Assembly (NCBI GenBank): GCA_963931925.1
Contig: OZ007567.1
Location: 78,790,686-78,854,685, forward strand
DNA: 64,000 nt
Source: Onchidella celtica
Lineage: Eukaryota; Mollusca; Gastropoda; Systellommatophora; Onchidiidae
Direction of reading: 5' to 3'
Shown here in pieces: positions 8,101 to 63,734 of this stretch. Position numbers and translations under genes: made by a program. The notes beneath the pieces were generated by a model. It was not told the origin of the DNA. It did not search any database and saw only the letters and a list, made by a program, of their open reading frames with translations. The first letter of the stretch is position 1. Every line of letters starts with the position of its first letter.

Positions 8101-11100
8101 CAAAGATGGGGGGGAAATATAAAGGGATTACTCCAAGGCTGAAGTGAAGTAAATTTCAGTACTTTTCAAACTCCATGCAAATTTTCAGTCTTTCGCTTTT
8201 GTCAGTCTCACTCTCTCTTTCTTCATCTGACACTGGTGACTAGACTGTTCCTTTCTAGACTTCTGGGTGCCAGTCTTAACTCATTCACATGGCTGGTCCG
8301 TGCGCCGTGTTTCGCGGCTCGACTAATACACATCCAAATCCAGACCGGTTTTTCAAAGTTAAAAAACATAAATCCAATCCAACATTCTGGAATGGTTTAT
8401 GAACTTCCTGTTGCTAAATTCAACCGGGAAAATACATAGTAGAGCTACTTTGAAGAGAGATTATCGACCAAGTTTTGGATTTGTTTTCATTTTTTGTGTG
8501 TGATGGTGGTGTCGGTTTTTTTGCTGTAACTTTTTTATTTCTCTAACAATGTTTGTGAAATTCATTTGAATTATCTATGAATGGATTATGAATAATATTC
8601 TGGAGTTTGAAGCCCATTGGAGTTTTTTTTCTAGATCTACGAACCGTAAGTTGAAATTGTGTTGGTCATAATCATAATTTTTTTTCTTACAATGATTTTT
8701 TCTCTCAAAATAAATTTTGATCTGCATATTTATAAAGTTCAGCATTTTACCTTTCTTTTGACATATAACATGTGTTGATTGGTTAATATAAATGTAGCCA
8801 AAAAATTAGGATTTTATAGAGAGGTCTAGTACCAAAAAGTAGGTCCAAAATCAGGCCCGGTCCAGAGATGGGGCCCTGGTAGTGAATGAGTTAAAGTGCA
8901 ATAAAAATGAGCAATGTTGATGTTGAAATTGTTTGTTGTTTGTACATAAGTGTATTTATGTACAGAAAATGCGCCTGTATTTATTATTGTTAGTGATTTG
9001 CACATGATGAGAAATAAACAGTTTTTTTCTTTTATCTCTCCACAGATGCTGGATGGCACACCTGTCCTAAAGCTGACACGCAATGAATACCGACCTGTCA
9101 CTTTAGTCTATCCCCTGGAGGAGAAGGAGAAAATGATGAGAGCTAAGAAGGAAGCAGCTCAGTTGGCTCTGGCTAAAGCTAGGGCTCAACGACAGCAGAA
9201 TAAGAAAAAGAACAAAAATAAAAGAGACAGGGGAAAATTGAAATCCAAAGGATCCAAGAAATTACCACTGAAAAAGAAACTGAAACAGAGAAAGAAAGAT
9301 GCTCCTCAGAATGAAAACTGTACTAACACTAACAGGCCTTCAGAACGGGGAGGGGTTAAAGGAACACATAATCCAGAATCTGTGAATGATCTCACATCTG
9401 ATGATCACATAAAGGTATCAAAACCTGTTATAGTAGAACAGGCAGATGAACAGATGCCAAACAAAGCAAACCATGTCTCTGTCTCAGAGATTTGGGAGGA
9501 TGGTGAATTTGTGCAGGCCAGCGCAGAGCGTGCTTGGTCAGGTGATCAGAGTGAATTTGATGTGATGCCTGCACATATTGATAAGCAGATTGCCAAAGAT
9601 GTACCAGCAATAGATATCCAAGTTTCCCTGCAGGGTGAGACTGTGTGCCTGTCTCCAACTGAAGCACCAGGCTCCCATCAACCTGAGACAGAGACAGCTA
9701 TCACTTCAGTGCAGCAGAGTCCCACATCTGCCCCAACACTAACAAGCTCACCTATGAAAGAGCCGTCATGTCACCTGCATACATCCTCTTCTAAAGGTGT
9801 CGCACAGTGTATGACAATAACACCTGTTACACAGCCAATAATCACTATGTCAGCATCCAGTCTCTGCAGTACAGTAGTCACATCATCACTTCCCTCACGA
9901 CCTTATGTAGCACCGCCACCAGATATATGTCCCTCTTCAGCAGCTGGTTCTTCAGTCCACGGTAACCAACCCATACCTGCACACTCAGAGAATGCAAAAA
10001 CTGAACAATTAACCAAAAAGTCTCTTCCAACACCTGTTTCTCACCCTATGACTTCTTTGACTCAGCTTCTGTCAGGCCCAATCCAGCCCCTATCAGCATC
10101 TACTTCGTTGGTTGGATTACCTTCGCAAGTGAATAAAGTATCAGTCTCAACATCACAAGCATACTCTTCTTCTCCAGCTGTGGCTAGTATTAATGCTGTT
10201 ACCAAATCAAACATTCTTAGCTCAGGAACAACCAGTATTCATGATACAGGGAAATCCATCATAAGTACAACCAAATCATCACAAAAGCCAGGACATGTAA
10301 ATGGTGGCATCGCACACAGATTTGCATCACCACTTCAGGGTGTCGCTGCTAGAATTCCTGTCATTGTAAATCTCACGCCACAACAGTTTCTTCCAACTTT
10401 TACATCAGCAATAAAGGAACAAAGTCAGAACTCAAATTCAGAGCCCACATCAATGTCCAAATCAGGGTCAAAGCAACCACCAAGAAGTCATGTACATGCC
10501 AGCCAGGGGAAATATAACACACATGTCATCTCTGAGGCAAAGGAAAGTAATGAAAACAGTGATCAAACTGAAAAAGCAAACAGTACAATTGAATGTGATA
10601 CACCAGAAATCTTGTCATCAAATCCAAGTCTAGATGGCACCTTACATAAAGAGTCCACATCCCCAGGTTTGTTGTCTACAGACATTAGAAATGATGACAC
10701 AGTTTCAAATGTGAAGACCTTTAGTTTTGATCCAGAGGGTGGCATTTCACCTGCACAAATAGCTACAAGTAACGTCAGTGTCATCCCAACCTCATCAAGT
10801 TCTTCTGCACAGCATGGTCCTTCTGTTTCACATGACGTCATATTGCAGGCATCTGGTACTAAAGTGACCAAGGGATCAACTGATCCATCATTCATTTCTC
10901 CATTAAAGGTGGCACCCACATCCCAGCCATTCTTTTCTCCAGGGAAATCTTTGAAGGAAAGATTACCTGAACTATTACGTACTCATTTGGAAAACTTTTC
11001 ATTATCTGGCTTTGATGACTCTATGGGGATCCACAACATTCAGCAGTTGGCTCAGTCCATATCTCCCAGTAAATTGCCTGGAGATTCTATGTCCAAATTT

Positions 11101-12739
11101 GACTTACTGGCATACATTGAATCATCTAATTTGACATGCAAGGACTCTGGATTCCAAGCCAAGACAAGCATCCCTCCACCTAAAACTACCCCTGGGTCTC
11201 TGCTATCATTTTCTGGTGCCATCCCAAAATCGACTTCTTCAATGTCAGATCAGGGTGCTTTAGAAGCTTCTTCAGAAGCTCCAAATCAAGCTCATGATGT
11301 GACACCTGAAGCTCGTTCAACTGTAGTTCAGGTTCCTTTGGCTTCAACCAGCATTCCTGTTAGTGAGACCACTGCCATCTCAGTGGATACTTGGACAGAG
11401 TAAGTCCCATTTCATTTGAATCTCAGAATATTATAATTATATTCATTGACAGATTCTACTAAACATAAAAGTAAAAATGAGTCTCGTGATCCCAGTGGGA
11501 TAATGAATCGCATAAACGAAACACATTTTTTATTTTTATCGACAATGGGTATACACACACAGATGAATTTTTCATAATTCATGGCAGCATGGGCAACCTG
11601 AGTTTTTATTACTGTGATAATTTGCTGTAATATATAAAGACAAAATATTAATATTAATGATGATATATAATGCTTGAGCTTATTTCCATGTGGCCCCTGC
11701 TTTTTTTCAAACTTTTAGAGGTCACTTTTTGGATGTAGCAAGAAATGTAGTTGTATTTGTATTTTATGGAGAGACAGACATGAGTTTAGATAAATTTAGA
11801 TGTTTGTTGAATGTTATTCATTTTAGACTAAATATTTTCTTGTATTCCCCACAGAGAGATGGACAGGTGTATCTTGAATGTTGTAACAGATGAGGGTGTC
11901 ACAAACAGTACATTGAAAAAACTGCAGTTATGTCTCCCCAATAAGTCCATTGAGGAAGTGAGTATCTGTAACTAAGTGCTGTCAAAAAGCAAGTATCAGA
12001 AATCAAAAAAATATTTGGTAAGATAGTATCATTAGTGTTGTTGTTCATCAGTCGGACTCGACTAAGACCAGCCACACATCAGGGGGGCGGGGGTGGTGGT
12101 TGACTGTGAGTGTGCAGGTGGCTGATGAGTCTGATGTGCGAATGGAAAGACCTCTGAGAGTGAGGGCAGGGAATGGTGGCTGCTGGATGAGAGTCATCGA
12201 CCCTGGATTTCCTAGCCTGCCATTGCTATTCCTGAGCAGCAGTCCTATTGGCCTAGCATAGCACAGCGCCTTTGCGGATGGAGGAGTGCCAGTTGGCTCT
12301 GTCTTGCAAAGTTGTTAGCAGCTGAGATACTGAATAGAAAATACTTTGTCTCTCTGTAAGGCTTAGCCAGTGTCTTGTGGTGCTATAGTACTTTGAATAG
12401 GAAACTAGAAGAATAGGCAGATTCAATGGAAACTTTGCAATCGAAGTCACTTCTTCGTAGGAGCATCAGATATCTCACAGTATAACTGCAGCAAACAGTT
12501 GTTACAAAATAAGCACTGTCGGGAATGCATTCGGTGTCACCACTTTTTTCATTCCAAACATTATTCAGAGGTATCATAAAAATCATTTCTTATCTACCAA
12601 AATGTATTACCTGGCATTGTCAATTTCATTTTCCTTTCAGCTGAGCTCGAGAGCAGTACAGCTACTTGATATGCTACAAGACATTGGAGATACTACAGAG
12701 AGTGACACAGGAACTGATACATCTCTGGATGGTTTTTAG
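4965..12739 (+). CDS. GON4L: GON4L homologue (3' six exons, partial gene)
   Basis: Exons 4965-5117, 5616-5806, 6910-7102, 9046-11399, 11855-11957 and 12641-12739 join in one frame (1030 codons plus stop). All have AG acceptors and GT donors. In order, the protein shows a PAH-like segment (LYTDMATLLSDHQDLVDDF, then FLRQLE), a second segment ending PDLMDDLLSYFFDG, an acidic stretch with DFEDVDLEEQ and the cysteine motif CSCQCH, a very long Ser/Thr/Pro-rich low-complexity exon with a Lys-rich nuclear-localisation-like block, and a Myb/SANT-like C-terminus starting WTEEMDRCILNVV. This order and these motifs match vertebrate GON4L (PAH repeats, then acidic/CxCxCH, then Myb), a nuclear corepressor-associated regulator. 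The N-terminal part must lie left of position 1, since 1-4964 shows no convincing exon. Identification is by remembered family motifs; no alignment was run. The gene converges on the ABCB gene ending at 17067. Confidence 0.87.
5616..5806 (+). CDS. GON4L: GON4L exon b (second PAH-like segment)
   Basis: The acceptor is TTTGTTTCAG and the donor is GTGAGG. The exon leaves two bases (AG) to be completed by the next exon. It encodes FQRTLKMMSKWLSL through PDLMDDLLSYFFDGPVPD, equivalent to the GON4L segment ending FFDHLRP. Confidence 0.85.
6910..7102 (+). CDS. GON4L: GON4L exon c (acidic + CxCxCH)
   Basis: The acceptor is CCTGATTTTTCCAG; the first C completes a Ser codon. It encodes HPKDFEDVDLEEQDMHYVDE, then CSCQCH and CFSCGLR, a cysteine arrangement also seen in GON4L (CACSCHEG). 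The donor GTAAGT occupies 7103-7108. Its last T is one base of the TA target duplication of a pogo-type element that starts at 7110. Confidence 0.88.
7110..7865. mobile_element. Pogo/Tigger-type MITE in GON4L intron
   Basis: The 756-bp element is flanked by TA at 7108-7109 and 7866-7867. The terminal inverted repeats start CAGTGCACTCTCCCGAT and match at 24 of 25 bases. Motifs of the type CGATAACGACAT recur several times near both ends. No transposase frame is present, so the copy is non-autonomous. The CAGT terminus and TA target are typical of pogo/Tigger elements; the assignment is by that resemblance. The interior has an AC/AAC-rich tract at about 7618-7680 and a repeated CCAATGA motif. 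Confidence 0.8.
8280..8890. mobile_element. TTAA-flanked piggyBac-like MITE
   Basis: TTAA at 8276-8279 and 8891-8894 flanks a 611-bp insert whose ends are inverted (CTCATTCAC and GTGAATGAG). There is no transposase frame. TTAA duplication is the hallmark of piggyBac-type transposition; a similar element lies at 18374-18949. It sits about 150 bp before GON4L exon d. Confidence 0.6.
9046..11399 (+). CDS. GON4L: GON4L exon d (784-codon low-complexity exon)
   Basis: The acceptor is TTATCTCTCCACAG and the donor is GTAAGT at 11400. The open frame extends upstream to 8950 but the acceptor sets the start. It opens with MLDGTPVLKLTRNEYRPVTL and continues into a Lys/Arg/Gln-rich coiled or nuclear-localisation-like block (about the first 90 codons). 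The rest is Ser, Thr and Pro rich with no recognisable fold, typical of disordered transcription-regulator regions. It ends DTWTE, the tryptophan that begins the Myb-like domain. Confidence 0.88.
11855..11957 (+). CDS. GON4L: GON4L exon e (Myb/SANT-like)
   Basis: The acceptor is TTGTATTCCCCACAG and the donor is GTGAGT. Joined to the previous exon it reads WTEEMDRCILNVVTDEG, then LCLPNKSIEE. This parallels the human GON4L Myb-like start WTREADRVILTMCQEQG and the following KTPAEV. Confidence 0.86.
11958..12640. other. Last GON4L intron with unclassified repeat
   Basis: Positions about 12040-12330 are GC-richer than the surroundings. They contain CATCAGTCGGACTCGACTAA and a GGGGGGCGGGGG tract, and look like an old dispersed repeat rather than an exon. 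The frames are broken and no family is recognised. Confidence 0.4.
12641..12739 (+). CDS. GON4L: GON4L terminal exon
   Basis: The acceptor is TTTTCCTTTCAG. It encodes LSSRAVQLLDMLQDIGD, an acidic Ser/Thr tail (TTESDTGTDTSLDGF) and a TAG stop at 12737-12739. The position corresponds to the last helix of the Myb-like domain plus a short acidic C-terminus. Confidence 0.83.
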   Translation: MSSRAVQLLDMLQDIGDTTESDTGTDTSLDGF

Positions 12740-32200: not shown

Positions 32201-35200
32201 TCCAGTATGAAAGAAGCTTTATCTTTTCAGGTCAACAACTTGAATTATAGCTCTTTACTAGTTTTCCTTTTTTGTTCCCTCTTAAATTAATCAACATCAT
32301 TTATTGAAGTACAAATTACAGTGAAGAGAACCAATCAAAATGCAATGCTGTTAGATCTGGGCTATCTCGGAAATATTATGTTCTAAAGAAATAATCAACA
32401 TCTCAAATGCTGCAGTATCCTTTTATAATTTCTCACAAAGTTTATTCATGCATTGGAAAAATTTCATATCCAAATTTGACAAATACTTACACTCATGGGT
32501 AGTGCAAGTTTTAAACAAAATTAAGGAAAATTTACATTCACTGAATAGGAACTTGACTAATAATCTGTTTTTGTGTCAAAATCATTAAATAATGTTGAAT
32601 TTTCAGTTTACACTTAAGTGCAACAATTATTTTACCTGACCGTCGACAGTATCATAAAATCTCAGCATCAACTGTACAAGTGTAGACTTGCCACAACCAC
32701 TAGCCCCCACCACTGCCACACTCTGACCTGCACTGACATGCAAATCCAAGCCACTCAGAACCTGGTAGGTTAAACAGTGCAACGGGTCAATCTGGCATGT
32801 GATATGAGTTGTGATGGTTCTCCTGATACTTGAGGGTGGCCATAACACAGTGCAACCCCATTAATATAGGACAAACAAATACAGTGATATGCCTGGACCT
32901 TTCATATTGTCTACCATGTAGGGCAAACTTGAGGACTCTATTAACATCATCACTCTTGCTAAGATGGAAAAGGGTCACCCGCACTGCACAGTTCATGAAG
33001 TAACTGTACCATTAAATGCGCTGCATCACCTGTTTTAACATGATTTATTTCATCATAACTGTACAGCTTGCCTAAATTATCTAAACTGTTGTGGTAAAAT
33101 ATGCCATTCCTTACAAAACACGGATACATGACTAAAATAAATAAAATGAAAATGCATGATGGCAAGAACATGACAAAAAATTAATAACGATCATCTTTAC
33201 CTGAACAGACGATCGGGAAGGATAACTGAAGGAAACTGAATTAAAATGGATGTCACCAATGACTCGGGAAGGTTTCAGGCCTTCTGTAGATGCACTGTCT
33301 ATTACAGATGTCTGAAAAGTTACAGAAAAATAGTTTATGAATCTTCTCCATAATGTGAGAGGATGAACGACTTTCTATTTTTAATGTGCTTTCATGGTAA
33401 CTCTGGTGCGTGAGTGAGGGACGGCCACTCATAGTAGTTTATGGACACTTGGCCGAGTACCATTAATTGGATTATTTCCCTTGTAATACTAGCGCGGGAC
33501 CCGTTATTCACATCACGGTGAAAAGCGCGCATTTTGATTGGTCAGTTGGAAATGTTGACCACCGGGCTTCCAACTCTTATATCATGGCTTTAAGTTTCTT
33601 ACAACTCGCTCCTTCGTTGTTATCCACCGACAGAAAGACGGGAACCCGAATTCATTGTTGAGAGTAGGCAATACCCTATCGGTACAAAATAGGTACTCAT
33701 GATAACGTTTGTTATCAATGGAGATACGTCGTATTAATGGACGAAAGTATCCCGCACAAAATTGTCGAATGTTGTTAGTCCTGACACTTTGAAAATTTAT
33801 ATTAAAACTATTACCGGGTTTCTGGTATAAGTAGTCAGTTAGAATTGTAGCAGCAAGTTTCTACTTTATAATGGTACCAATTTCGTTGTGCTTTGATGCA
33901 CAGGTCCTATTGAAATAATTAATAAGAGGATCTCGGATTTAAAGTAAACCACGAGTTAGACGCATGTTATCCCCGATAAATCCAACCTGGGTCAAATTTA
34001 TTCAATTATTGCTGGAGGGGACGTTAGAGTAATTTCTGCAGTTTACTGGGATACCTAATTGACTTTTGTGTGCACCCTTTTAACCGTACCGTAAATTCGA
34101 TTGTGTTAGGACCCTAACCGGTTATGTTGTTCGGCTGGACTCCATGTCCGAGCCTTTCACGTGTCCAAAATTGGACTACGTAATAGCTCTCTCGGACGTC
34201 CGCGCTGGCTAATAAATAAGATGCGAGTTCGAGTGGTCAGCACACTCCATCAAAGACGCAGAGACAAGAGCCGGCAGCACAGTGAACCCAGACCGGCGGC
34301 GGCCTGCCGTGGCGCGCCTCGCCCAAAACATGGCCCAGTCCAGTTGCGCCAGTAGCAGAGAGACTTTGGGTAAGTTGGAGACTATTATATTAGAAGTGAC
34401 TTTAATTTGCGCACCCCCTCCCCCCCCTTTCTTGGATGCCACGTAGAGAATGCTGATCTACAGAGACCATTACGAGTCCGGCTCAACGGTAATTGCCATT
34501 GTCATTAGACGTGTAAGATGCGCGATGCAGCGCAGTGTCTTGATATTGTGACTTTATTGTCAAAGTTAACGTTTGCGGTGCTAGATGATAATGATGGCTC
34601 GCTAACCAAGCTATCACAATTTGCTTGTGTGCATATATATAGTGTGTGTGTAGCATTGCCTTGTTGTGGTAGGCAGTGAGGATTTCCTGACATGTTGATG
34701 TGGATGACTTATGTTATAGCGAGCGGCACTACACACTTGATTGTAGTACGGGTATTTGTGTACCTTGCCAGTACCACTATGCTATAGAGAGCAGTGTGAT
34801 TGTGATTGTGTGTTTAATGTTTAAGATGTGTAATTAATTACATGTAGGCCTATTGGAGATGTATAATATTAGTTGGGCCTCACATGTGTGAGCCCCAGGA
34901 TTGTCCTATGTGCGGCGGTGGATGAACAACGTTTCAGTGAGTCTACACATGTTGCAATGAGTCTCGCCGACATATATATATATATATCATGTGCATGTAT
35001 TATAGTTATCCAGATGTATTATGCTTCTATGAGTTTCGTAAGTGTGTGAAGGACAGTTTCATTTTAAGGAATGTACACATTACTTTATGTATCTAGTGGT
35101 GTGTCATACACATGTTAGCCTGGCGGCATAGCTCCGCGGCTAAGGTCAAAGGGCATGACCCTTCAGTATCGATTGGGAAGGGAAGTAACCAATACAATAG

Positions 35201-38200
35201 CCCTGGGGCGGGTTAGTACTAATAATGGGAGTGGGCCTATGAGGATGGCCTGCATTGGGATGCAGCGTCTGTGTTATGGACGGTCAGTGGGCCATGTTGG
35301 CCACTGCGTTATTATTTTATGGAATGGCCACTCTGGATGTGCTGTACACCGGCTCAGTGGAGCAAAACTATTGTGTTCGTGCCCCTTCATTTGTTATGTC
35401 CTTCATACTTTGATTAGTACATTAATTAGTTTATGTTGCCAGTGTACTAGGAAACTCCTTGTGTATATGATATAGCCACTTGTAGTTGTTATTCATTAAC
35501 TTTAGCGCTATTTTATTCCATGTATACATATCCAGTTGGTTATTGCTTAAATTCTATATTATGTTGTTGTTGTTTGATTTAATACTTAATACTATTAATA
35601 TGTATGTCCACCATTGATTGCCTGATTAATGTTGTCATTATATCCTAATCATATTTTTGTCTTTTTCTCTTGTTCCAGCTTATGGCTGGTTGGGCTTCTT
35701 TTTATGGGCTTCTTCTTTTCTGGGTTTCTTTTCTTTTTTTGGGCTTCTTTTTCTGGGCTTCATTTTCCTTTTTCTTGGTAGGGTTTTTCCTATGCCTTTT
35801 TGGTAGCGATACCTTTGTTAGGCTTTTGAATAAATAAGATTGCCAGCAGAACCCTGTGTTTGTTAATCCTGTGTATCCTTAAGGGAGTTACTATTGAACC
35901 CACGCAGTAACCACATTAGCCACTCGTAGTTCAATCCAACAATAAGACAGTAAATGTTTATTGTAAATGTCTAAACATGTACCAAATACCATCAAATGAC
36001 ATTTCCCACAATTGTGGGTGTAAAACATTTGCAGTAATTAATTCTAGCCACACTGAGGGGTAAAAAGGTAAACTGTCAAAATGTGGCAAAAAGAAAAAGT
36101 TGTATTTAGCAATGCCTCACATAAGAAATAATACAGAAAAAATTCAATAAAACGCAAAAACAAAAACAAAAAAGGAAATACAAATGAAGCTTTTAATACC
36201 TCGCTACATATACAACTTTTTCTTTTTGTCATATTTTGACTCTGCTTCAAACCTTGCTGTGACCCAACAGATTTTCTGTGGGTTTTTTTTTCAACAATTT
36301 TGTCAAAAGGTAAACTGTGCGAAGTTTCTGTTTAAAGAATTCAGTCTGAAAGACAGTGAGTGCATTGTAGAGATTTGTTTCTATGGTTGGACAGAGCAAT
36401 TGTAAACATTTATTGTTAATTACCATGTTTACCAATTCTTTCAGCCATATCCAGGTGAACTGGAATTCTTTCCATAATGTCATGTACCTCTATGGATATA
36501 AACCATTTCATTATTTTACCAAATATATGAAAAGGCACTAACCCTATCGATGATGTAGAATACTTCATGGGCAGCTCCCCTGCCAGTGACGATTGCAACC
36601 ATAGAGGGAACAATAAAGCCAAGAGACATAGCACCAACAAGAGTGTTAAAAAAAACCTGAGGAAAACATGTATAATTTATTATTTGCTTTGGATACAGAT
36701 CCCGGGGGGGGGGGGGGGGGGGGGAAGCAAGCATCAGTGTTTCATTTATTAGACCTATCATGTAAATAGTTCAGCCAAAAGTCACAATCAATGAATATGT
36801 CATAAGAATCAGTGAATAATATGTGACTATTCATCCATTTGTTAATCCATACCTTCATTTCTTCATCATCCGTCCACATAACCAGCTGTCTACCATATCT
36901 ATCAACCAGCCTGTTTACCAGTGTCTGTCTGAATTCATGTCTACATCTGTATTCATTAGTCATTCTGTTTGACAGCCTGTCTACCCATCTTTTAGTCAGG
37001 TTTTTTGTCTGTTCTAAGTTTGTACTGTAATTATACATCTACTTCATGGGCATTACCTAGAAGTGTAAAAAGTTATACTGTTGGAGAGGTTTTTTCAGAT
37101 ACTGACCATAATCATATCTTTGACAGAATAATCACCATGTCTGACCAGCATGCCGCCATACCAGAAGCCCAAACCCCAGTTAGAAAACGTGATTAACCAC
37201 ACAATACCCTGGCCTGCACCTATGACCATGCTCTTCTGGATGCCAAACATAGTGGCATCCCTCAGGCTTTCTATGTACCTGAGGAATGTATGGCAAAAGA
37301 AATATCAATTATAAAACTTTTTTTTTGCTTCAATGCTTTTGAGTTCAAACCAAAATAATAATAGCTTGATCTATTCTGGACGTTAATAATCACAATTAAA
37401 GACACACACTTGTTCAAGTTTACATGCCCACATATTTTCTGAAATGAAAAATTTCTTTTGCAAATAATCTGCAGTTGAGCTCTCTCCTGCCAGACTATCA
37501 TGAAAATGCCATGGTAAAAAAAAAAAAATATCCACCAAATCTACGTTTTGTCTCTTCAATGGTAGAATCCCACCTAGTGAGTCCCAGGATTGATAAATTA
37601 GTAGAAAACAAATGTCAGTGAGAAGGTGAAGGGGATTTCTAGCTGGGATTTCTGATGCTGAAAGTAATGATTATAACACAAAAAATGCTAGTGGGGAAAA
37701 GGTGTCGAGTGTAGAAGTTAATGACACAACCATGAACACCCCGGATAGAATGAAAGACCATTAATTTTGTGTAACTGTCACCTGACTGCTTCTTTCTCCT
37801 CTCCACCGAATGCCTGGACGGTCCTGATTGCAGAAAAAACTTCCTCAGCCACTGCACCAGCCACACCATAGGATACTCTCTCTTTAGACGTCATGGTATA
37901 CAGGAGCTGAAAGACAGATCATAGACAGGGTGATTTGACATGCCAATTTTGAGAGATAGCAGGTAACCCATGCACAAAAACATATTACGGAGACATAGCA
38001 GGTATGGTAGGAAACTATAAATGTGGTAACTTCCTGGCCAACAAATGGGGGGGGGGGGTAGAGGCGAAGATGGTAACTGAAAGGATAATCAATGACTTAA
38101 CTTTCTAAAAAGTAGTCAAAAATGGATTAGTGGTATCAGTTTAGATCTATGGTATAAATCAATGATGAAATTTCTTCTTCTCTCTTTTCTTCTATTATTA

Positions 38201-50950: not shown

Positions 50951-52218
50951 TGTTGGATGAACTACGAGTGGGTAATGTGGTTACTGCGTGGGTTCAATAG
51001 TAACTCCCTTAAGGATACACAGGATTAACAAACACAGGGTTCTGCTGGCAATCTTATTTATTCAAAAGCCTAACAAAGGTATCGCTATCAAAAGGCATAG
51101 GGAAAACCCTATCAAGAAAAGGAAAATGAAGCCCAGAAAAAGAAGAAGCCCAAAAAAAAAAGCCCAACCAGCCATAAGCCAAAGTTTCTCCGGGTCCTGT
51201 GCTACCGCTACATGCCTTATGGGGCGGGGTGGCGATGGCAAGCGTCGGCAAGCCTCTGAGCTGCTACGGGCCCGGGTTGCTGGGCTGGGTTCACTGTGCT
51301 GTCGGCTCTTGTCTCCTGCGTCTATGATGGAGTGTGTTGACCACTCGAACCGCATCTTATTTATGAGCCCGCGCGGACGTCCGAGAGAGCTATTACGTAG
51401 CCCGTGTTGCACAAGTGAAAGGCTCGGACATGGAGTCCAGCCCGACAACATAACCGGTTAGGGTCCTAACACAATCGAATTTACAGTACGGTTAAAAGGG
51501 TGCACACAAAAGTCAATTAGGTATCCCAGTAAACTGCAGAAATTACTCTAACGACCCCTCCAGCAATAATTGAATAAATTTGACCCAGGTTGGATTTATC
51601 GGGGATAACATGCGTCTAACTCGTGGTTTACTTTAAATCCGAGATCCTCTTATTAATTATTTCAATAGGATATGCGCATCAAAGTACAACAAAATTGGTA
51701 CCATTATAAAGTAGAAACTTGCTGCTAAAATTCTAACTGACTACTTATACCAGAAACCCGGTAATAGTTTTAATATAAATTTTCAAAGTGTCAGGACTAA
51801 CAACATTCGACAATTTTGTGCGGGATACTTTCGTCCATTAATACGACGTATCTCCATTGATAACAAACGTTATCATGAGTACCTATTTTGTACCGATAGG
51901 GTATTGTCTACTCTCAAAAATGAATTCGGGTTCCCGTCTTTCTGTCGGTGGATAACAACGAGTGAGCGAGTTGTAAGAAACTCAAAGCCATGATATAAGA
52001 GTTGGAAGCCCGGTACATTTCCAACTGACCAATCAAAATGCGCGCTTTTCACCGTGATGTGAATAACGGGTCCCGCGCTAGTATTACAAGGGAAATAATC
52101 CAATTAATGGTACTCGGCCAAGTGTCCATAAACTACTATGAGTGGCCGTCCCTCACTCACGCACTAGAGTTACCATGAAAGCACATATTAAAAATAGAAA
52201 ATCGTTCATCCTCTCACA
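50951..52218 (-). repeat. 3' LTR of the young element
   Basis: Ends TG/CA. It lacks the 1.3-kb segment present in the solo copy; the join is between 51178 and 51179. An AATAAA (GAATAAATAAG on the minus strand) lies downstream of the join and could serve polyadenylation. Confidence 0.92.
51062..51451 (-). CDS. LTR ORF crossing the intron-loss join
   Basis: 129 codons in the element's sense orientation, present also at 53437-53826 in the other LTR. Residues 1-91 are basic/polar ([12 protein letters not shown] motif); residues 92-129, encoded after the join, are strongly hydrophobic ([20 protein letters not shown]). The former intron sits exactly between two codons. Whether it is translated is unknown; no homologue is recognised. 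Confidence 0.3.
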   Translation of the reverse strand: MLSGWTPCPSLSLVQHGLRNSSLGRPRGLINKMRFEWSTHSIIDAGDKSRQHSEPSPATRARSSSEACRRLPSPPRPIRHVAVAQDPEKLWLMAGWAFFFGLLLFLGFIFLFLIGFSLCLLIAIPLLGF

Positions 52219-52816
52219 TTCTCCCCTGCTAAGTCACGTAGTCCCTTACGTGACACATACATCAATTCAAAGGTTTACAAAAGACCACTGAAGGTATAAT
52301 CAAACTCTAAGGGGCTATGATACCATCACTTAGGGTAGAACAATTGCAAAATACACACAGTGAACCGAAGTACAACAATGGTCCATCCTCTTTATAACTA
52401 CTAACAGGTGGCGTGAACCGGCTAAGCTACTACTGGCATCCTGAAGATGTACACAACAGTCTCAGCTCTGGCTGTAGTAAGTTACATCATATGGACAAAA
52501 CAACAGGTCCCAGACCTGCAACGGTGGTCCCAGACCACTATCAGGGTTAACGTAGGATCGAACAGTACAAAAAAGACAATATGCTATAAGGGCACTAGTG
52601 CAATGAAAAAGGTAAGGTCGACATAGGCATAAAAGTAATTGTAATTAAGCTGTGGAGAAAGCCAACATGGGCATACTCTCTAACTTAAAATCTTGAGGCG
52701 GAGCTCCCTTGGATTCGGTGGTCTATCATCTGGCCTGATGGAAACTGGGGGGGGGGGGGGGGGTCTTGATGGGTGCGCTCCCCTGCTCTTTCTGCACTCA
52801 CAGTCAATGTCTAATG

Positions 52817-53260
52817 TTAATCACTAATAAGAGTCAGAGGTCCAATCTCTGGGGTTGTCTGTGTGGGCGGCTGGACCGTCGCACAGGAGGTAGGCGCTGG
52901 GAAGTTGTCATCCCAGGTTGAGGGTCCGGTCGGGCTGCAGGTGGCTGGCAAGGGTGGTGAGCCGGGAAGTACCAGACATCGGTCGACGCAGGCAGTGGAG
53001 GCGGGTGCTGTGGATGTGTGTTGACCACTGGGGGGTGAAATAACCGCAAGAGGTCTCCGTTGACCGCAGTGGGATGGGTGGTGTACACAGGACTGGGATA
53101 CAGGTCCTGAATCTTGAGTTGATGTTGGAGGGCGTTGGTCTTCGTGGCCCCCTGGTTCCTGTGGGGTGGGGCAGGGGTTGGCTGGCTGGCTGGGCTTCAA
53201 ACTAAACATTTCCACGGCTGGGCTCTCTACACTACAAACTAACCCTTCTGTGTATCCCAC
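52817..53260 (-). CDS. Proline-rich ORF in the internal region
   Basis: 147 codons, rich in Pro, Ser and Thr, in the element's sense strand about 65 bp after the primer-binding site. It occupies the place where a gag start is expected but shows no capsid or CCHC motif. It may be a degenerate leader or gag remnant. Function unknown. Confidence 0.3.
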   Translation of the reverse strand: MGYTEGLVCSVESPAVEMFSLKPSQPANPCPTPQEPGGHEDQRPPTSTQDSGPVSQSCVHHPSHCGQRRPLAVISPPSGQHTSTAPASTACVDRCLVLPGSPPLPATCSPTGPSTWDDNFPAPTSCATVQPPTQTTPEIGPLTLISD

Positions 53261-53325
53261 TTCTTGACACCAGAAAATGTTGGATGACTAATGGACCGAA
53301 GTATCCCACTTCTGACACCAGAAAA

Positions 53326-54593
53326 TGTTGGATGAACTACGAGTGGGTAATGTGGTTACTGCGTGGGTTCAATAGTAACTCCCTTAAGGATACACAGGAT
53401 TAACAAACACAGGGTTCTGCTGGCAATCTTATTTATTCAAAAGCCTAACAAAGGTATCGCTATCAAAAGGCATAGGGAAAACCCTATCAAGAAAAGGAAA
53501 ATGAAGCCCAGAAAAAGAAGAAGCCCAAAAAAAAAAGCCCAACCAGCCATAAGCCAAAGTTTCTCCGGGTCCTGTGCTACCGCTACATGCCTTATGGGGC
53601 GGGGTGGCGATGGCAAGCGTCGGCAAGCCTCTGAGCTGCTACGGGCCCGGGTTGCTGGGCTGGGTTCACTGTGCTGTCGGCTCTTGTCTCCTGCGTCTAT
53701 GATGGAGTGTGTTGACCACTCGAACCGCATCTTATTTATGAGCCCGCGCGGACGTCCGAGAGAGCTATTACGTAGCCCGTGTTGCACAAGTGAAAGGCTC
53801 GGACATGGAGTCCAGCCCGACAACATAACCGGTTAGGGTCCTAACACAATCGAATTTACAGTACGGTTAAAAGGGTGCACACAAAAGTCAATTAGGTATC
53901 CCAGTAAACTGCAGAAATTACTCTAACGACCCCTCCAGCAATAATTGAACAAATTTGACCCAGGTTGGATTTATCGGGGATAACATGCGTCTAACTCGTG
54001 GTTTACTTTAAATCCGAGATCCTCTTATTAATTATTTCAATAGGATATGCGCATCAAAGTACAACAAAATTGGTACCATTATAAAGTAGAAACTTGCTGC
54101 TAAAATTCTAACTGACTACTTATACCAGAAACCCGGTAATAGTTTTAATATAAATTTTCAAAGTGTCAGGACTAACAACATTCGACAATTTTGTGCGGGA
54201 TACTTTCGTCCATTAAGACGACGTATCTCCATTGATAACAAACGTTATCATGAGTACCTATTTTGTACCGATAGGGTATTGTCTACTCTCAAAAATGAAT
54301 TCGGGTTCCCGTCTTTCTGTCGGTGGATAACAACGAGTGAGCGAGTTGTAAGAAACTCAAAGCCATGATATAAGAGTTGGAAGCCCGGTACATTTCCAAC
54401 TGACCAATCAAAATGCGCGCTTTTCACCGTGATGTGAATAATGGGTCCCGCGCTAGTATTACAAGGGAAATAATCCAATTAATGGTACTCGGCCAAGTGT
54501 CCATAAACTACTATGAGTGGCCGTCCCTCACTCACGCACTAGAGTTACCATGAAAGCACATATTAAAAATAGAAAATCGTTCATCCTCTCACA
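53326..54593 (-). repeat. 5' LTR of the young element
   Basis: Same length as the other LTR. Differences seen by eye: 51567/53942 region T/C, 51842/54217 region T/G, and one C/T in the TGAATAACGGG/TGAATAATGGG motif. The intron-position join is between 53553 and 53554. Confidence 0.92.
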
Positions 54594-58352: not shown

Positions 58353-60065
58353 CTGCAAAAGGAATATTGATTTTGAACTTTCACACACTGCAGTTTTTAA
58401 AGTTATAAATGAGGTTACAACTAACAGTATCTTCATATGTTGAAAGAAATCACTAGTGTGAAAATAATGACATCTTTCTCTAACACACAGTATGATGCCA
58501 CCAAATGTTGTTGGGTAATATCAGTGTAGCTTTCAAAAGTAAGGAAGTCTAGTACTCTTCTGGTCGCACTGGCTACTATTAATTCTTATTTTATATTCAC
58601 AAACTTTAAAGTAAAGAATAATACATCACTGTGTTTGAGATATGAAAAAAATGAACGATATTTTTATATAATGTACTTTCATTGTAATGCTAGTTTGTGA
58701 CTAAGGCACGGCTGCTCATACTAGAGGTTTATAGGCACTTGTCTGGTCGCCATTACTTGAATTACTTCCTTTGTGTACAGTAGCGTGGGGCCCATTATTA
58801 ACATTGCTGTGAGGAAGTGCTTTTTGACTGGTCAATTGGGAATTGAGACCAGCGGGTATCCAGCTCCTGAATCATGTCTAAAATTTATGTTTTCTTTCTC
58901 ATCAACCGTAGGAAAGACAGAACCTTGGGTTCATTTTCAAGAGTATGCAATATCCTTCCCATATAATATAGGTGCTCAAGATAACTTTTGTTACTAACGG
59001 AGATCTGATGTGTTGATGGACCAAAATATCCCGTGCGAATCGATCAATTTTATAAATCCCATCACCTTTGAAAAATTATTCTAAAACTACTACAGAGTTT
59101 CAGGATAAAGTAGCTGGTTAGAATTTTAGTAGGAAGTTTTTACTCTGTATTGATAATTTTATTATACTTTGATGCACTTATCCTGATGAGATCGTCAATA
59201 ATAGAGTCTCGGATTTTAAATAAATGATGAGCTAGACACGTTTTATCACTGATAAATCCAACCTGGGTCAAACTTATTAAATTGTAGCTCAATAGAACGA
59301 TAAAGTATCTTCTGCAGTTTTCTGGGATATCCGTTTGATTTCTGTGCGTTCAGTATTACCTGTGTTATGAATTTTTTCTGTCGGTACACTGACCAATTTT
59401 TCAAGTTTAGGCCCTATGCCACAGCATTCAAACTGCTGACCACTGGACCTGCTTTCTCGCATGTCTGCACGGCCAATATAAATACAATGCCATATCAGGT
59501 TTGAGATGCACTCTCATCAGATGCTGCAAAGACTACTGACCAGTGCCAGTGTACCACCCCAGACTGTTTTTGAAGCTTGCCGCCACCCCGCCCCTGATCG
59601 CAAAGCATGATGCAGTAGTCCAGGACCATGGGAGAAACTTTCGGGGAGTGAGAGACTACTAGAATAACTTTAATTTTAATTTGCTTAATTGATTCCGGTT
59701 AAGTGTGCTGATGCTGCTGATTTGCTCCCCGATGATGCCGCATAGAAATTTATAGAGGCTAGTGTGACCCTGGCTCAATGGTAATTATCAATTGCCATTC
59801 GAAGTAAACTGCCCTGTTACTAGCGTTAGTTGCTAATGTCCGCTACCCTAAGACACTATATGAGTAAAGATGCTTGCTACAGTGTATTACGATTAATGCA
59901 TTGTATTATGTTAGCATTCGGACAATGTTTTATTGTTTAAGTTCGCTAATGCGCAACGGTCTGCAGATGCCCTGTTGTTGTGCTAGATGTTAACGATGGC
60001 TCCCTAGCCTCAAGACATTTATGATTTGCTTGTGTGTGTGTGTGTAACACTGCCTTGTTGTAGTA

Positions 60066-62768
60066 TATATATGGCCTTTGGCGTCTTTACAGACGGTCTT
60101 AGCAGCTAGAATATTCACTTTCACTTTGACTGACAGCTTCTCTCGTGGCTTATTCTACCAATGTTTGACCCGAGAGTGCGATGGCAGTGATTGCAGGTCA
60201 GTCTTTTGGGTTCACTTTGGCGAGTGTTTTCATTCCGCCTCTGTCGTTTTGTCAGGTATGTTTCTTTTGCCTTGAAGTCTATTGCGAGCGTGCCACTGCG
60301 CAATTTTTGTCTCCATCTGCTTCGATCATTTGCAAGGTTCTCCCATTCATTGGGGTCGATGTTGAATGCTTTCATCGTGACCTTGCAAGTGTCTTTGAAT
60401 CGCAGATGTGGCCTACCTCTGGGTCGGTTGCCAGTAGCAAGTTCCCCGTAGAGAATTTGTCTGGGGATGCGATCATTTTCCATACGGTGGAGATGTCCAA
60501 GCCACCGCAGTCTTTTTTTGCCTAGGAGAGCCTGAGTTGATGGAATGTTGGCTCGGCTCAGAACTTCGATATTTGAGATCCTGTCTTGCCACTTGATCTT
60601 GAGAATTTTGCGTAGGCAGCGCAGGTGGAAGGAGTTGAGGGATCTTTCATGTTTGGAGTAGGTGGTCCATGTCTCTGAGCCATACAGCAGGGTGCTTAGG
60701 ACGCAAGTTTGGTACACGAGTACCTTTGTTTTGATGGTCAGCTTGCTATTGTTCCACACCCTTTTTGAGAGTTTGCCAAAAGCTGTGGCCGCCTTTCCTA
60801 TTCTGGCATTTATTTCAGTTGTTATGTCTGTGCTACGACTGATGGTTGAGCCTAGGTAGCAGAATTTTCCCACTTGCTCCAGAGGAGAGCCATTCAGCAT
60901 GATTGGGTTGGGGTTTCTCAAGCCTTGTGTCAAAACTACAGTTTTTGAGACACTGATCTTTAGCATGAATTTGTCACAGGCTTTGGCAAGGCTATTGATG
61001 AGAGCCTGGAGCGTGGTTTCATCGTGGGCCACGATTGCAGCATCATCTGCGAAGAGGAGCTCTTGTAACATAATATGCTCTGTACGAGATTTTGCTTTTA
61101 GTCTGGCAACATTAAAAATGGAGCCGTCCACTCTGGTGTTAATAAGTACTCCACCTGAACATTGACCAAAGGCATTCTTGAGTAGGGCTGCAAAATATAT
61201 ACCAAATAAGGTAGGAGCAAGAACACATCCCTGCTTCACACCGCTGTTTACAGCAAATGAATTGGATGTGCAGCCCTCAAAGTTGACACATGCCCTCATG
61301 TCAGTGTGGAAGGATGCAATAAGTTTTAGCAATGTTGGTGGACAGCCTATGGATTTAAGGACTGCATACAGCCCAGATCGGCTTACGGTGTCGAAAGCCT
61401 TTGTTAGGTCCACAAAGCATGTTATAAGCGGCCTGTTTTGTTCTTTACATTTTTCTTGGATTTGCCGAAGTGCAAATATCATGTCAATAGTTGATCGTTT
61501 GCTTCGAAAGCCACATTGTGTTTCTGGTAAGACTTTTTCCGCCAGTTGTTGAAGGCGGCAGTGGATGACGCGAGCAAAAGCCTTTCCAGTAATGCTGAGG
61601 AGGGATATGCCTCGATAGTTGTTGCAGTCGCCTTTGTCTCCTTTGTTCTTGTAAAGTGTGACAATTTTGGCGTCTCTCATATCATGTGGTATCACGCCTT
61701 CTTTCCAACACTGCAGTAACAGATTATACAGGTGTGGTAATAGTGGGCCTTTTAGGTCTTTTAATACCTCTGCAGGAATGTTGTCACTTCCTGTGGCTTT
61801 TCCAGCAGACAGGTGGTCGATTGCATTGGAAAGCTCGACTAAGGAAGGTTCAGCGTCAAGTTCGGCCATTATTGGCAGTTTTTGGAGGTGTTCCTCAAAA
61901 TCTGGTGGAATATTTTTCTCAGTTGAATACAACAGAGAGTAATGCTCTACCCACCTATTCAGTTGTTCATTTTTATCTGTGATGGGTTCACCATTTACAG
62001 ATTTAAGTGGGGCGCTTTTTGTGATGATTGGCCCAAGAGCTACTTTCATCTGACTAAAGGCGGTTTTCATATCTCCCTTTTCATTTGCCTCTTGTATGCT
62101 GTTACACAAGTCTGTCCAGTATTTGTTGGCGCAACGTCTTACCTCCAGCTGAAGTTTAGCTTTTGCATTTTTCAAACAAGTTTTTGTACTCTGATTGCAA
62201 TTTTTGTTATACTCATTGAAAGCAGATTTCTTTTGCTCAATGAGAGGTAGGAGAATTTCGCTGTTCTGGGCTACCCAGTCGTTGTTTGAAACTTTATGCT
62301 GTCCAAAAGACTTGATGGCACAGTCATGAATTTTTGAACTGAGAGTGTTCCATGTTTCATCTACCGAGTCACATTGGCTGACATTATCCATGCTTTCAGC
62401 AAATAACTTTTCAAATGACTTTCTATTTGATTCATCTCTGATTGCTGTTACATTGATCTTAGGGATTGAAGGGGCTTTTGATCTGTATATTTTCTTGGCC
62501 GAAATTTTGATTTTGCTGACTACCAGTGCATGGTCGGTGTCACAGTCAGCACTGTGGAGGGAACGGGTTATTTTTATACAGCCCAAACTCTTCCTCCTTG
62601 AGAGAATAAGATCTAATTGATGCCAATGGCCAGACCTGGGATGGCGCCATGATGTTCTTTGGCATCTCTTAAGGTCAAAGTACGTGTTTGTAACACATAA
62701 TGAGTTTACGGAGCATAGCTCCAGAAGGCGCTGCCCGTTTTCGTTGATGTTGCCAATGCCGAAGTGCA
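60066..62768 (-). mobile_element. Non-LTR retrotransposon, 5'-truncated, nested in the LTR
   Basis: 2.7 kb flanked by the 11-bp direct repeat TTGTTGTAGTA at 60055-60065 and 62769-62779. The empty site is visible in the other LTR copy (CTTGTTGTGGTAGGC near 34659). The element has a 55-bp 3' UTR and a short (TA)n tail instead of poly(A), like RTE-type and related clades. The 5' end is cut inside the endonuclease domain. Confidence 0.92.
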
Positions 62769-62838
62769 TTGTTGTAGTAGGCCGTGATAATTTCTTGACA
62801 TGTATATATTGTAGGTGATTCATCACAGTGAGCGACAC
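60121..62838 (-). CDS. Endonuclease (C-terminal part) - reverse transcriptase - zinc finger polyprotein
   Basis: A 905-codon open frame with no internal stop. Residues 1-23 come from the flanking LTR and target repeat; element sequence begins about Met24. Next come the end of an APE-type endonuclease (HWHQLDLILSRR, DCDTDHALVV at about 80-110) and RT motifs (GSDNIPAEVL; NYRGISLLS near 410; FVDLTKAFDTVSR; GVKQGCVLAPTLF; LLFADDAAIVAHD near 595; FCYLGSTIS). The C-terminus ends in a CNHCHRT...ISHERSC zinc-finger-like motif. RT catalytic aspartates are present. It reads as a recent insertion, but without the full endonuclease it should not transpose on its own. The clade is not assigned. Confidence 0.9.
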   Translation of the reverse strand: MSLTVMNHLQYIHVKKLSRPTTTMHFGIGNINENGQRLLELCSVNSLCVTNTYFDLKRCQRTSWRHPRSGHWHQLDLILSRRKSLGCIKITRSLHSADCDTDHALVVSKIKISAKKIYRSKAPSIPKINVTAIRDESNRKSFEKLFAESMDNVSQCDSVDETWNTLSSKIHDCAIKSFGQHKVSNNDWVAQNSEILLPLIEQKKSAFNEYNKNCNQSTKTCLKNAKAKLQLEVRRCANKYWTDLCNSIQEANEKGDMKTAFSQMKVALGPIITKSAPLKSVNGEPITDKNEQLNRWVEHYSLLYSTEKNIPPDFEEHLQKLPIMAELDAEPSLVELSNAIDHLSAGKATGSDNIPAEVLKDLKGPLLPHLYNLLLQCWKEGVIPHDMRDAKIVTLYKNKGDKGDCNNYRGISLLSITGKAFARVIHCRLQQLAEKVLPETQCGFRSKRSTIDMIFALRQIQEKCKEQNRPLITCFVDLTKAFDTVSRSGLYAVLKSIGCPPTLLKLIASFHTDMRACVNFEGCTSNSFAVNSGVKQGCVLAPTLFGIYFAALLKNAFGQCSGGVLINTRVDGSIFNVARLKAKSRTEHIMLQELLFADDAAIVAHDETTLQALINSLAKACDKFMLKISVSKTVVLTQGLRNPNPIMLNGSPLEQVGKFCYLGSTISRSTDITTEINARIGKAATAFGKLSKRVWNNSKLTIKTKVLVYQTCVLSTLLYGSETWTTYSKHERSLNSFHLRCLRKILKIKWQDRISNIEVLSRANIPSTQALLGKKRLRWLGHLHRMENDRIPRQILYGELATGNRPRGRPHLRFKDTCKVTMKAFNIDPNEWENLANDRSRWRQKLRSGTLAIDFKAKETYLTKRQRRNENTRQSEPKRLTCNHCHRTLGSNIGRISHERSCQSK

Positions 62839-63734
62839 TATGCCCCTTGATTATATTTTACTGGTACTTGTGTCAGGCCGCTATACCACTATGCTACAGA
62901 GAGCAGTGTAATTATATTTACATGCTTAGTGCTTGAGGTGTGTTAGTTAGTACAGTTTTACACAGGTGAGCCGCAGAATTGTTATTTTTGTCCAATTATT
63001 TTGCCGGTAACACGCCCCAATAAGTCCTATAATTATGTGACGATGAATTAACATGTTTCAATGAGTTCCACACATTACAATGAGTCCCATATGTGTATAT
63101 ATTTATATGCTTGCGTTAGCATCAACCTGCGGGGCACAAAAAATCTAAAGATGCCATTTTAAAGCAGTAATCAACAGTGGCCAGCTGACTGTGGATAATA
63201 TGCATCCCAGTCCAGGTTATCCTGTTCAAATTATCACTGACAAACTCAGTGTCTATTGTAGGGTTGCTCCCCTTTCCATCTAATACTGGTTGTAATCCTG
63301 CTCCTTGATTATGTCCATTCACAACAGTACATTACATCCTTTTACTGGAGACTCCTTGTATTTTAATTCTTACTTGTACTTCATTATCCTTAGCATTTGT
63401 ACCCTCCATATAATTACATGCATCATGTTGATATTTTGAAAATTACTTGATTTCTATGTATGCTCACCATTGATTAGGCTTACTTGATTGCATGTTGTAA
63501 TTATTCTAATCATATTTTGTCTTTCCTCTTTGTTCCAGCTCATGCGTGGTTGGGTTTTCTTTGGTTCCCTTTTTTTGTGTCGTTCCTAGTTTTTTTTTTT
63601 ATACACGTAAATAGATAGCAGCATCAATTAAGAACACGTGTCTTTTAATTGTGTCTCCTAAAGAAATAGGGGCCTACTTAGAACCCACTACACATATGCC
63701 CACAAGCCCACATTAACCGCTCTTTCATCCTACA

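Follow-up and report, generated by a model that had tools for sequence, protein, structure and literature searches.

Results

Three copies of an LTR family in the window

The 64,000-nt stretch of Onchidella celtica DNA analysed here (the window) contains three copies of one LTR family. The first is a solo LTR on the forward strand at 33354–35941, 2588 bp long, which has TG...CA ends and is flanked by the 4-bp target-site duplication (TSD) ATAA at 33350–33353 and 35942–35945 (flanks CCATAA and ATAAGA). Its probable U3 (33354–34237), delimited by a TATA-like AATAAATAAG at 34211–34220 with a putative promoter function, is conserved in the other two copies. It is followed by a probable exon 1, which would form the start of R (34238–34369), a 1309-bp segment that starts GTAAGT and ends CAG (34370–35678), and exon 2, comprising the probable end of R, together with U5 (35679–35941, with an AATAAA at 35829). 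The segment includes a TA run, and exon 2 contains a T-rich tandem array (35696–35773) that is longer in the solo LTR than in the young LTR described below. The RNA structure predicted around exon 1 of the solo LTR (34239–34380) was no more stable than those of shuffled sequences (z 0.16).

The second copy, the young element, lies on the reverse strand at 50951–54593 and has two 1268-bp LTRs that lack the segment (5' LTR, 53326–54593; 3' LTR, 50951–52218) and CTAA on both outer flanks as its TSD. The LTRs are direct repeats with the ends TGTGAG...CCAACA and differ at 3 of 1268 positions. Five bases past the 5' LTR stands a primer-binding-site-like TGGTGTCAGAAGTGGGATA (53302–53320), which we take to resemble the 3' end of tRNA-Leu, and the 3' LTR is preceded by the polypurine-rich AGCAGGGGAGAA (52219–52230). 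As judged from its TSDs, TG...CA ends, primer-site-like and polypurine-rich sequences, the young element integrated by the usual LTR route. The two ORFs that were scanned, an internal one and one in the 5' LTR, are without a Pfam match, and therefore the element looks non-autonomous; the gag-pol coding of an autonomous LTR retrotransposon was not found in these ORFs, and the internal region is only 1107 bp long. A second, slightly different CATCCAACATTTTCTGGTGTCAAGAAGTGGGATACA is located within the internal region, and a stretch composed of the LTR end and the primer site is duplicated (53326–53251, minus strand). No reverse transcriptase of this LTR family was found in the 64,000-nt window.

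The third copy, at 58632–63734 on the forward strand, is a diverged solo LTR (71% identity in U3 by blastn) that harbors a homologous segment and a LINE insertion; inspection by eye gave no clear TSD. The nested LINE, a later insertion within the segment, contributes a reverse transcriptase ORF on the reverse strand (60121–62850) that is free of stops and matches Pfam RVT_1 with an E value of 1.5e-33. Its relatives number 1813 among 7984 scored candidates, the two closest among the matches listed being 71–72% identical, and those named among 120 matches listed come from Batillaria, Patiria and Branchiostoma.

Four pieces of the family, used as nhmmer queries, detected no additional copy in the window at E≤0.01, and pattern scans of viral_contigs and genome_contigs (viruses and prokaryotes) revealed no relatives of the family. 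Elsewhere in the window, an 817-aa open stretch at 8950–11403, possibly a large host-gene exon, showed no Pfam match, and none of 7985 scored candidates was homologous to it at E≤0.001.

The segment has the boundaries of a spliceosomal intron

With 34370–35678 left out, 1179 of 1230 aligned positions are identical between the solo LTR and the young 5' LTR, a similarity of 96%. The alignment has 87 gap columns; a single gap of 32 columns falls within the T-rich array of exon 2, and others lie in a stretch of exon 1 that aligns poorly. Both young LTRs carry the join ACTTTGG/CTTATGG, and none of the three positions at which they differ lies at this junction. When the breakpoint was moved from −3 to +3 (seven shifts), only 0 and −1 yielded the young sequence, and shift 0 corresponds to GT...AG, reading TTTGG/GTAAGT...TTGTTCCAG/CTTATGG. 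The collinearity of the two LTRs outside the segment, its GTAAGT start, its end in a pyrimidine tract plus CAG and the join common to both young LTRs had all been predicted originally, and each was reproduced, the exact boundary with an ambiguity of one base.

Of the 15 bases that precede the terminal NCAG of the solo acceptor, 14 are pyrimidines, and a branch-point-like CTAAT starts 34 nt before the acceptor end in the solo LTR and 33 nt before it in the old copy. Scored with a weight table, the donor is equalled or exceeded by 27 of the 7254 GT sites on both strands of the window. Over the same two strands (128,000 positions), GTAAGT occurs 25 times and a 12-of-15 pyrimidine tract followed by NCAG occurs 80 times. 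The segment thus combines the features of a spliceosomal intron, namely GT...AG ends, an extended donor, a branch-point motif and a pyrimidine tract, and its precise absence from a reverse-transcribed copy was seen at one locus, in the two LTRs of the young element. The segment is very probably a spliceosomal intron, and its loss very probably went through an RNA from which it had been spliced.

We considered and rejected a coding role for the spliced LTR, as no frame conserved between the solo and young LTRs was seen and there was no Pfam hit in the two ORFs scanned and no homologue; the ORF that spans the junction matched 0 of 69 candidates at E≤1. Several frames of the T-rich exon 2 would encode hydrophobic runs.

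The intron most likely lies within R

All three copies have a TATA-like box upstream of the donor position, namely AATAAATAAG in the solo LTR, where it lies ~160 bases from the donor, CATAAATAAG in the young LTRs and AATATAAATA at 59475 in the old copy. By analogy with LTR promoters, it would place the start of transcription near 34239–34250, within the probable exon 1. The AATAAA of exon 2 lies 150 bases downstream of the acceptor and is present in the solo and young LTRs, while the old copy reads AATAGA at this position. The two signals bracket the intron, which places it most likely within R. The R placement, made conditionally in the original prediction, is therefore supported by both signals in the solo and young LTRs and by the TATA-like box, but not the poly(A) signal, in the old copy, and it stands as a probable assignment.

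Two other placements were weighed. The solo motif at 34211 also holds an AATAAA, and reading this as the poly(A) signal would put the intron in U5; the TATAAATA of the old copy favours the promoter reading. Alternatively, transcription might start downstream of an intron situated in U3, which would then be removed by splicing at the 3' end of that RNA. Because this end is the template for U3 in both new LTRs, both would lose such an intron, and the two intron-less LTRs would be explained equally by this arrangement. It would, however, leave aside the TATA-like box that the three copies share upstream of the donor, and the 150 bp between the acceptor and AATAAA, inspected by eye, are T-rich and contain no TATA. 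We consider a U3 intron unlikely.

The intron is most simply ancestral

The original prediction placed a homologous segment at the corresponding site of the old copy and took it as ancestral. We judged homology within the intron by local alignment scores and left out segment identities from global alignments, which are inflated by gaps. The homology between the solo LTR and the old copy spans the donor (score 49, against a maximum of 26 in 300 shuffles) and includes the final 80 nt before the intron ends (74 against 42, 300 shuffles), and a blastn match crosses the acceptor (solo 35599–35701 to old 63455–63562, E 2.8e-13). The presence of the segment at the same place was thereby borne out; it occupies two loci, neither of them that of the young element, with a conserved acceptor region. 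Between these ends, solo 34370–34520 (50 against 34) and 34655–34960 (152 against 46) score above the shuffle maximum, 35400–35600 barely does so (58 against 52), and 35000–35400 falls below it on the same strand (25 against 38). In the last of these regions, a block of ~200 bp (solo 35146–35351, old 63130–63308) matches in the opposite orientation only, with an nhmmer E value of 4.5e-7, a local score of 83 inverted versus 25 on the same strand (maximum of 300 shuffles, 32) and 49/71 in blastn. Either this block was inverted between the two copies or one repeat was inserted in opposite directions; the interior of the intron appears to have been rearranged while the acceptor was kept. Exon 2 aligns poorly with the old copy (score 26 against a shuffle maximum of 29; no nhmmer hit at E≤0.01). 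The acceptor of the old copy ends at 63538 and its donor has decayed to GGGAGT near 59650, and this copy is therefore evidence for homology and for the acceptor, but not for a functional donor in its own lineage.

In U3, 246 sites set the old copy apart, 11 are solo-only and 7 young-only, which makes the solo and young LTRs sisters. As the segment is present in the solo LTR and the old copy, the simplest history is that the common ancestor had the intron and the young line lost it, and the predicted derived state of the young element is well supported by this comparison. Exon 1 beside the intron behaves differently, having 23 solo-only versus 6 young-only differences in a poorly alignable tract. 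Such an excess makes recombination between sublineages likely, and the order of events need not have been simple; possible sources of the divergence of the solo exon 1 are sublineage recombination, template switching in R or fast local change. Its 3' part in the solo LTR (34290–34360) is unlike the young and old sequences, which are closer to each other.

These observations also bear on the opposite polarity, in which the segment would be a mobile insertion or an introner-like intron gain in the solo and old lineages and the young element would never have had it. Recombination of the kind suggested by exon 1 could have passed an intron to the solo lineage, and the inverted block reveals a labile interior. 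However, given the sister relationship of the solo and young LTRs, a gain needs recombination or two separate events, and the ends of the segment are exact splice sites. The flanking duplication that would indicate a later insertion was looked for and found to consist of one repeated G, and insertion with a target-site duplication was rejected on this basis; gain in general we hold to be quite improbable. An ordinary deletion, although frequent in LTRs, is rejected as having next to no probability, since both of its ends would have to fall on exact splice sites by coincidence (~2.4e-7 for a random segment, a crude figure that treats the ends as independent) and since the change is common to both young LTRs, which most simply places it before integration.

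Discussion

Origin of the intron-less LTRs

We consider it highly likely that the young element originated from an RNA spliced in its 5' R, with R as the most likely site of the intron. In the mechanism that we propose, the spliceosomal intron of the family would sit between the LTR promoter and the LTR poly(A) signal and would be passed on whenever the genomic RNA enters reverse transcription with an unspliced 5' end. The RNA that gave rise to the young element would have been spliced in its 5' R. Minus-strand strong-stop cDNA made on this RNA would copy U5 and the spliced R and would transfer to the 3' R, pairing via exon 1, and an intron-less R-U5 would thereby be written into both LTRs whether the 3' R was spliced or not. 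An intron in U5 would lead to the same outcome; for one in U3, splicing of the 3' end would decide. Because canonical reverse transcription takes the R-U5 sequence of both new LTRs from the 5' end of the RNA, splicing at that end is sufficient. The original prediction suggested that the intron could be removed from both ends of the genomic RNA; this may have occurred but is not required, since canonical strand transfer needs only the 5' end.

More speculatively, the R intron could be maintained as part of the life cycle, such that splicing of the 5' R would label an RNA as messenger and retention would label it as genome. Intron-bearing LTRs would thereby persist, spliced lineages would be escapees, and the 5' end of a single RNA would always decide the state of both LTRs. 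We regard this extension as doubtful.

A removable intron at a place where the LTRs are rebuilt in each cycle would serve as a heritable mark of the reverse transcription template, recording whether its 5' end was spliced or unspliced. Comparing the numbers of copies with and without the intron across the host genome would give a measure of how often an RNA with a spliced leader serves as genome, and a copy whose two LTRs are unlike would expose a departure from full-length strong-stop transfer. The counts would also test whether introns of this kind, known in SIV/HIV-2, help to separate messenger from genome in other LTR elements.

Comparison with known systems

Retroviruses of the HTLV-1 type have their 5' splice donor in R, shortly downstream of the cap. 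The family described here resembles them in having a donor probably in R and differs in that the acceptor is in the same LTR. Penelope-like elements reportedly (Arkhipova et al. 2003) keep spliceosomal introns, located in the terminal-repeat/5' UTR part, and would thus be similar as retroelements with a spliceosomal intron in a terminal repeat. They are characterised by pseudo-LTRs and a GIY-YIG endonuclease (PMC12910113). In contrast to these elements, the present family has TG...CA LTRs, 4-bp TSDs and primer-site-like and polypurine-rich sequences, and neither of the two ORFs scanned in the young element has a Pfam domain.

TRIM elements have very short LTRs of a few hundred bp, compared to the 1268 bp of the young LTRs. 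For ta-TRIM of Echinococcus, the available part of the report describes transcribed solo LTRs, some giving short transcripts, and alternative cis-splicing of some full-length elements (PMC4558846). The young element is short, as ta-TRIM is there; unlike the present case, no intron wholly within the LTR and no intron-less LTR copy is described in that part (PMC4558846). A literature search by title, mainly of open-access work, retrieved no LTR retrotransposon whose LTR encloses a complete intron; we do not claim that none is in print.

The closest parallel is provided by SIV and HIV-2, for which one report describes a functional intron in R-U5 and suggests that it adds a level of regulation to genomic RNA packaging (PMC1766366). 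An intron inside an LTR, originally predicted to be an uncommon design, may well be uncommon, but on this account it is not unprecedented. SIVmac and HIV-2 are LTR elements with an intron within the R-U5 portion of their 5' leader, as is most likely the case for the present family. Unlike these lentiviruses, the family has no recognised coding domains, its 1.3-kb intron apparently lies wholly in R, and a genomic copy exactly without the intron is present. The present case is set apart by the combination of a donor and an acceptor inside one conventional LTR, an intron of 1.3 kb between them, and a young copy from which precisely that intron is missing.
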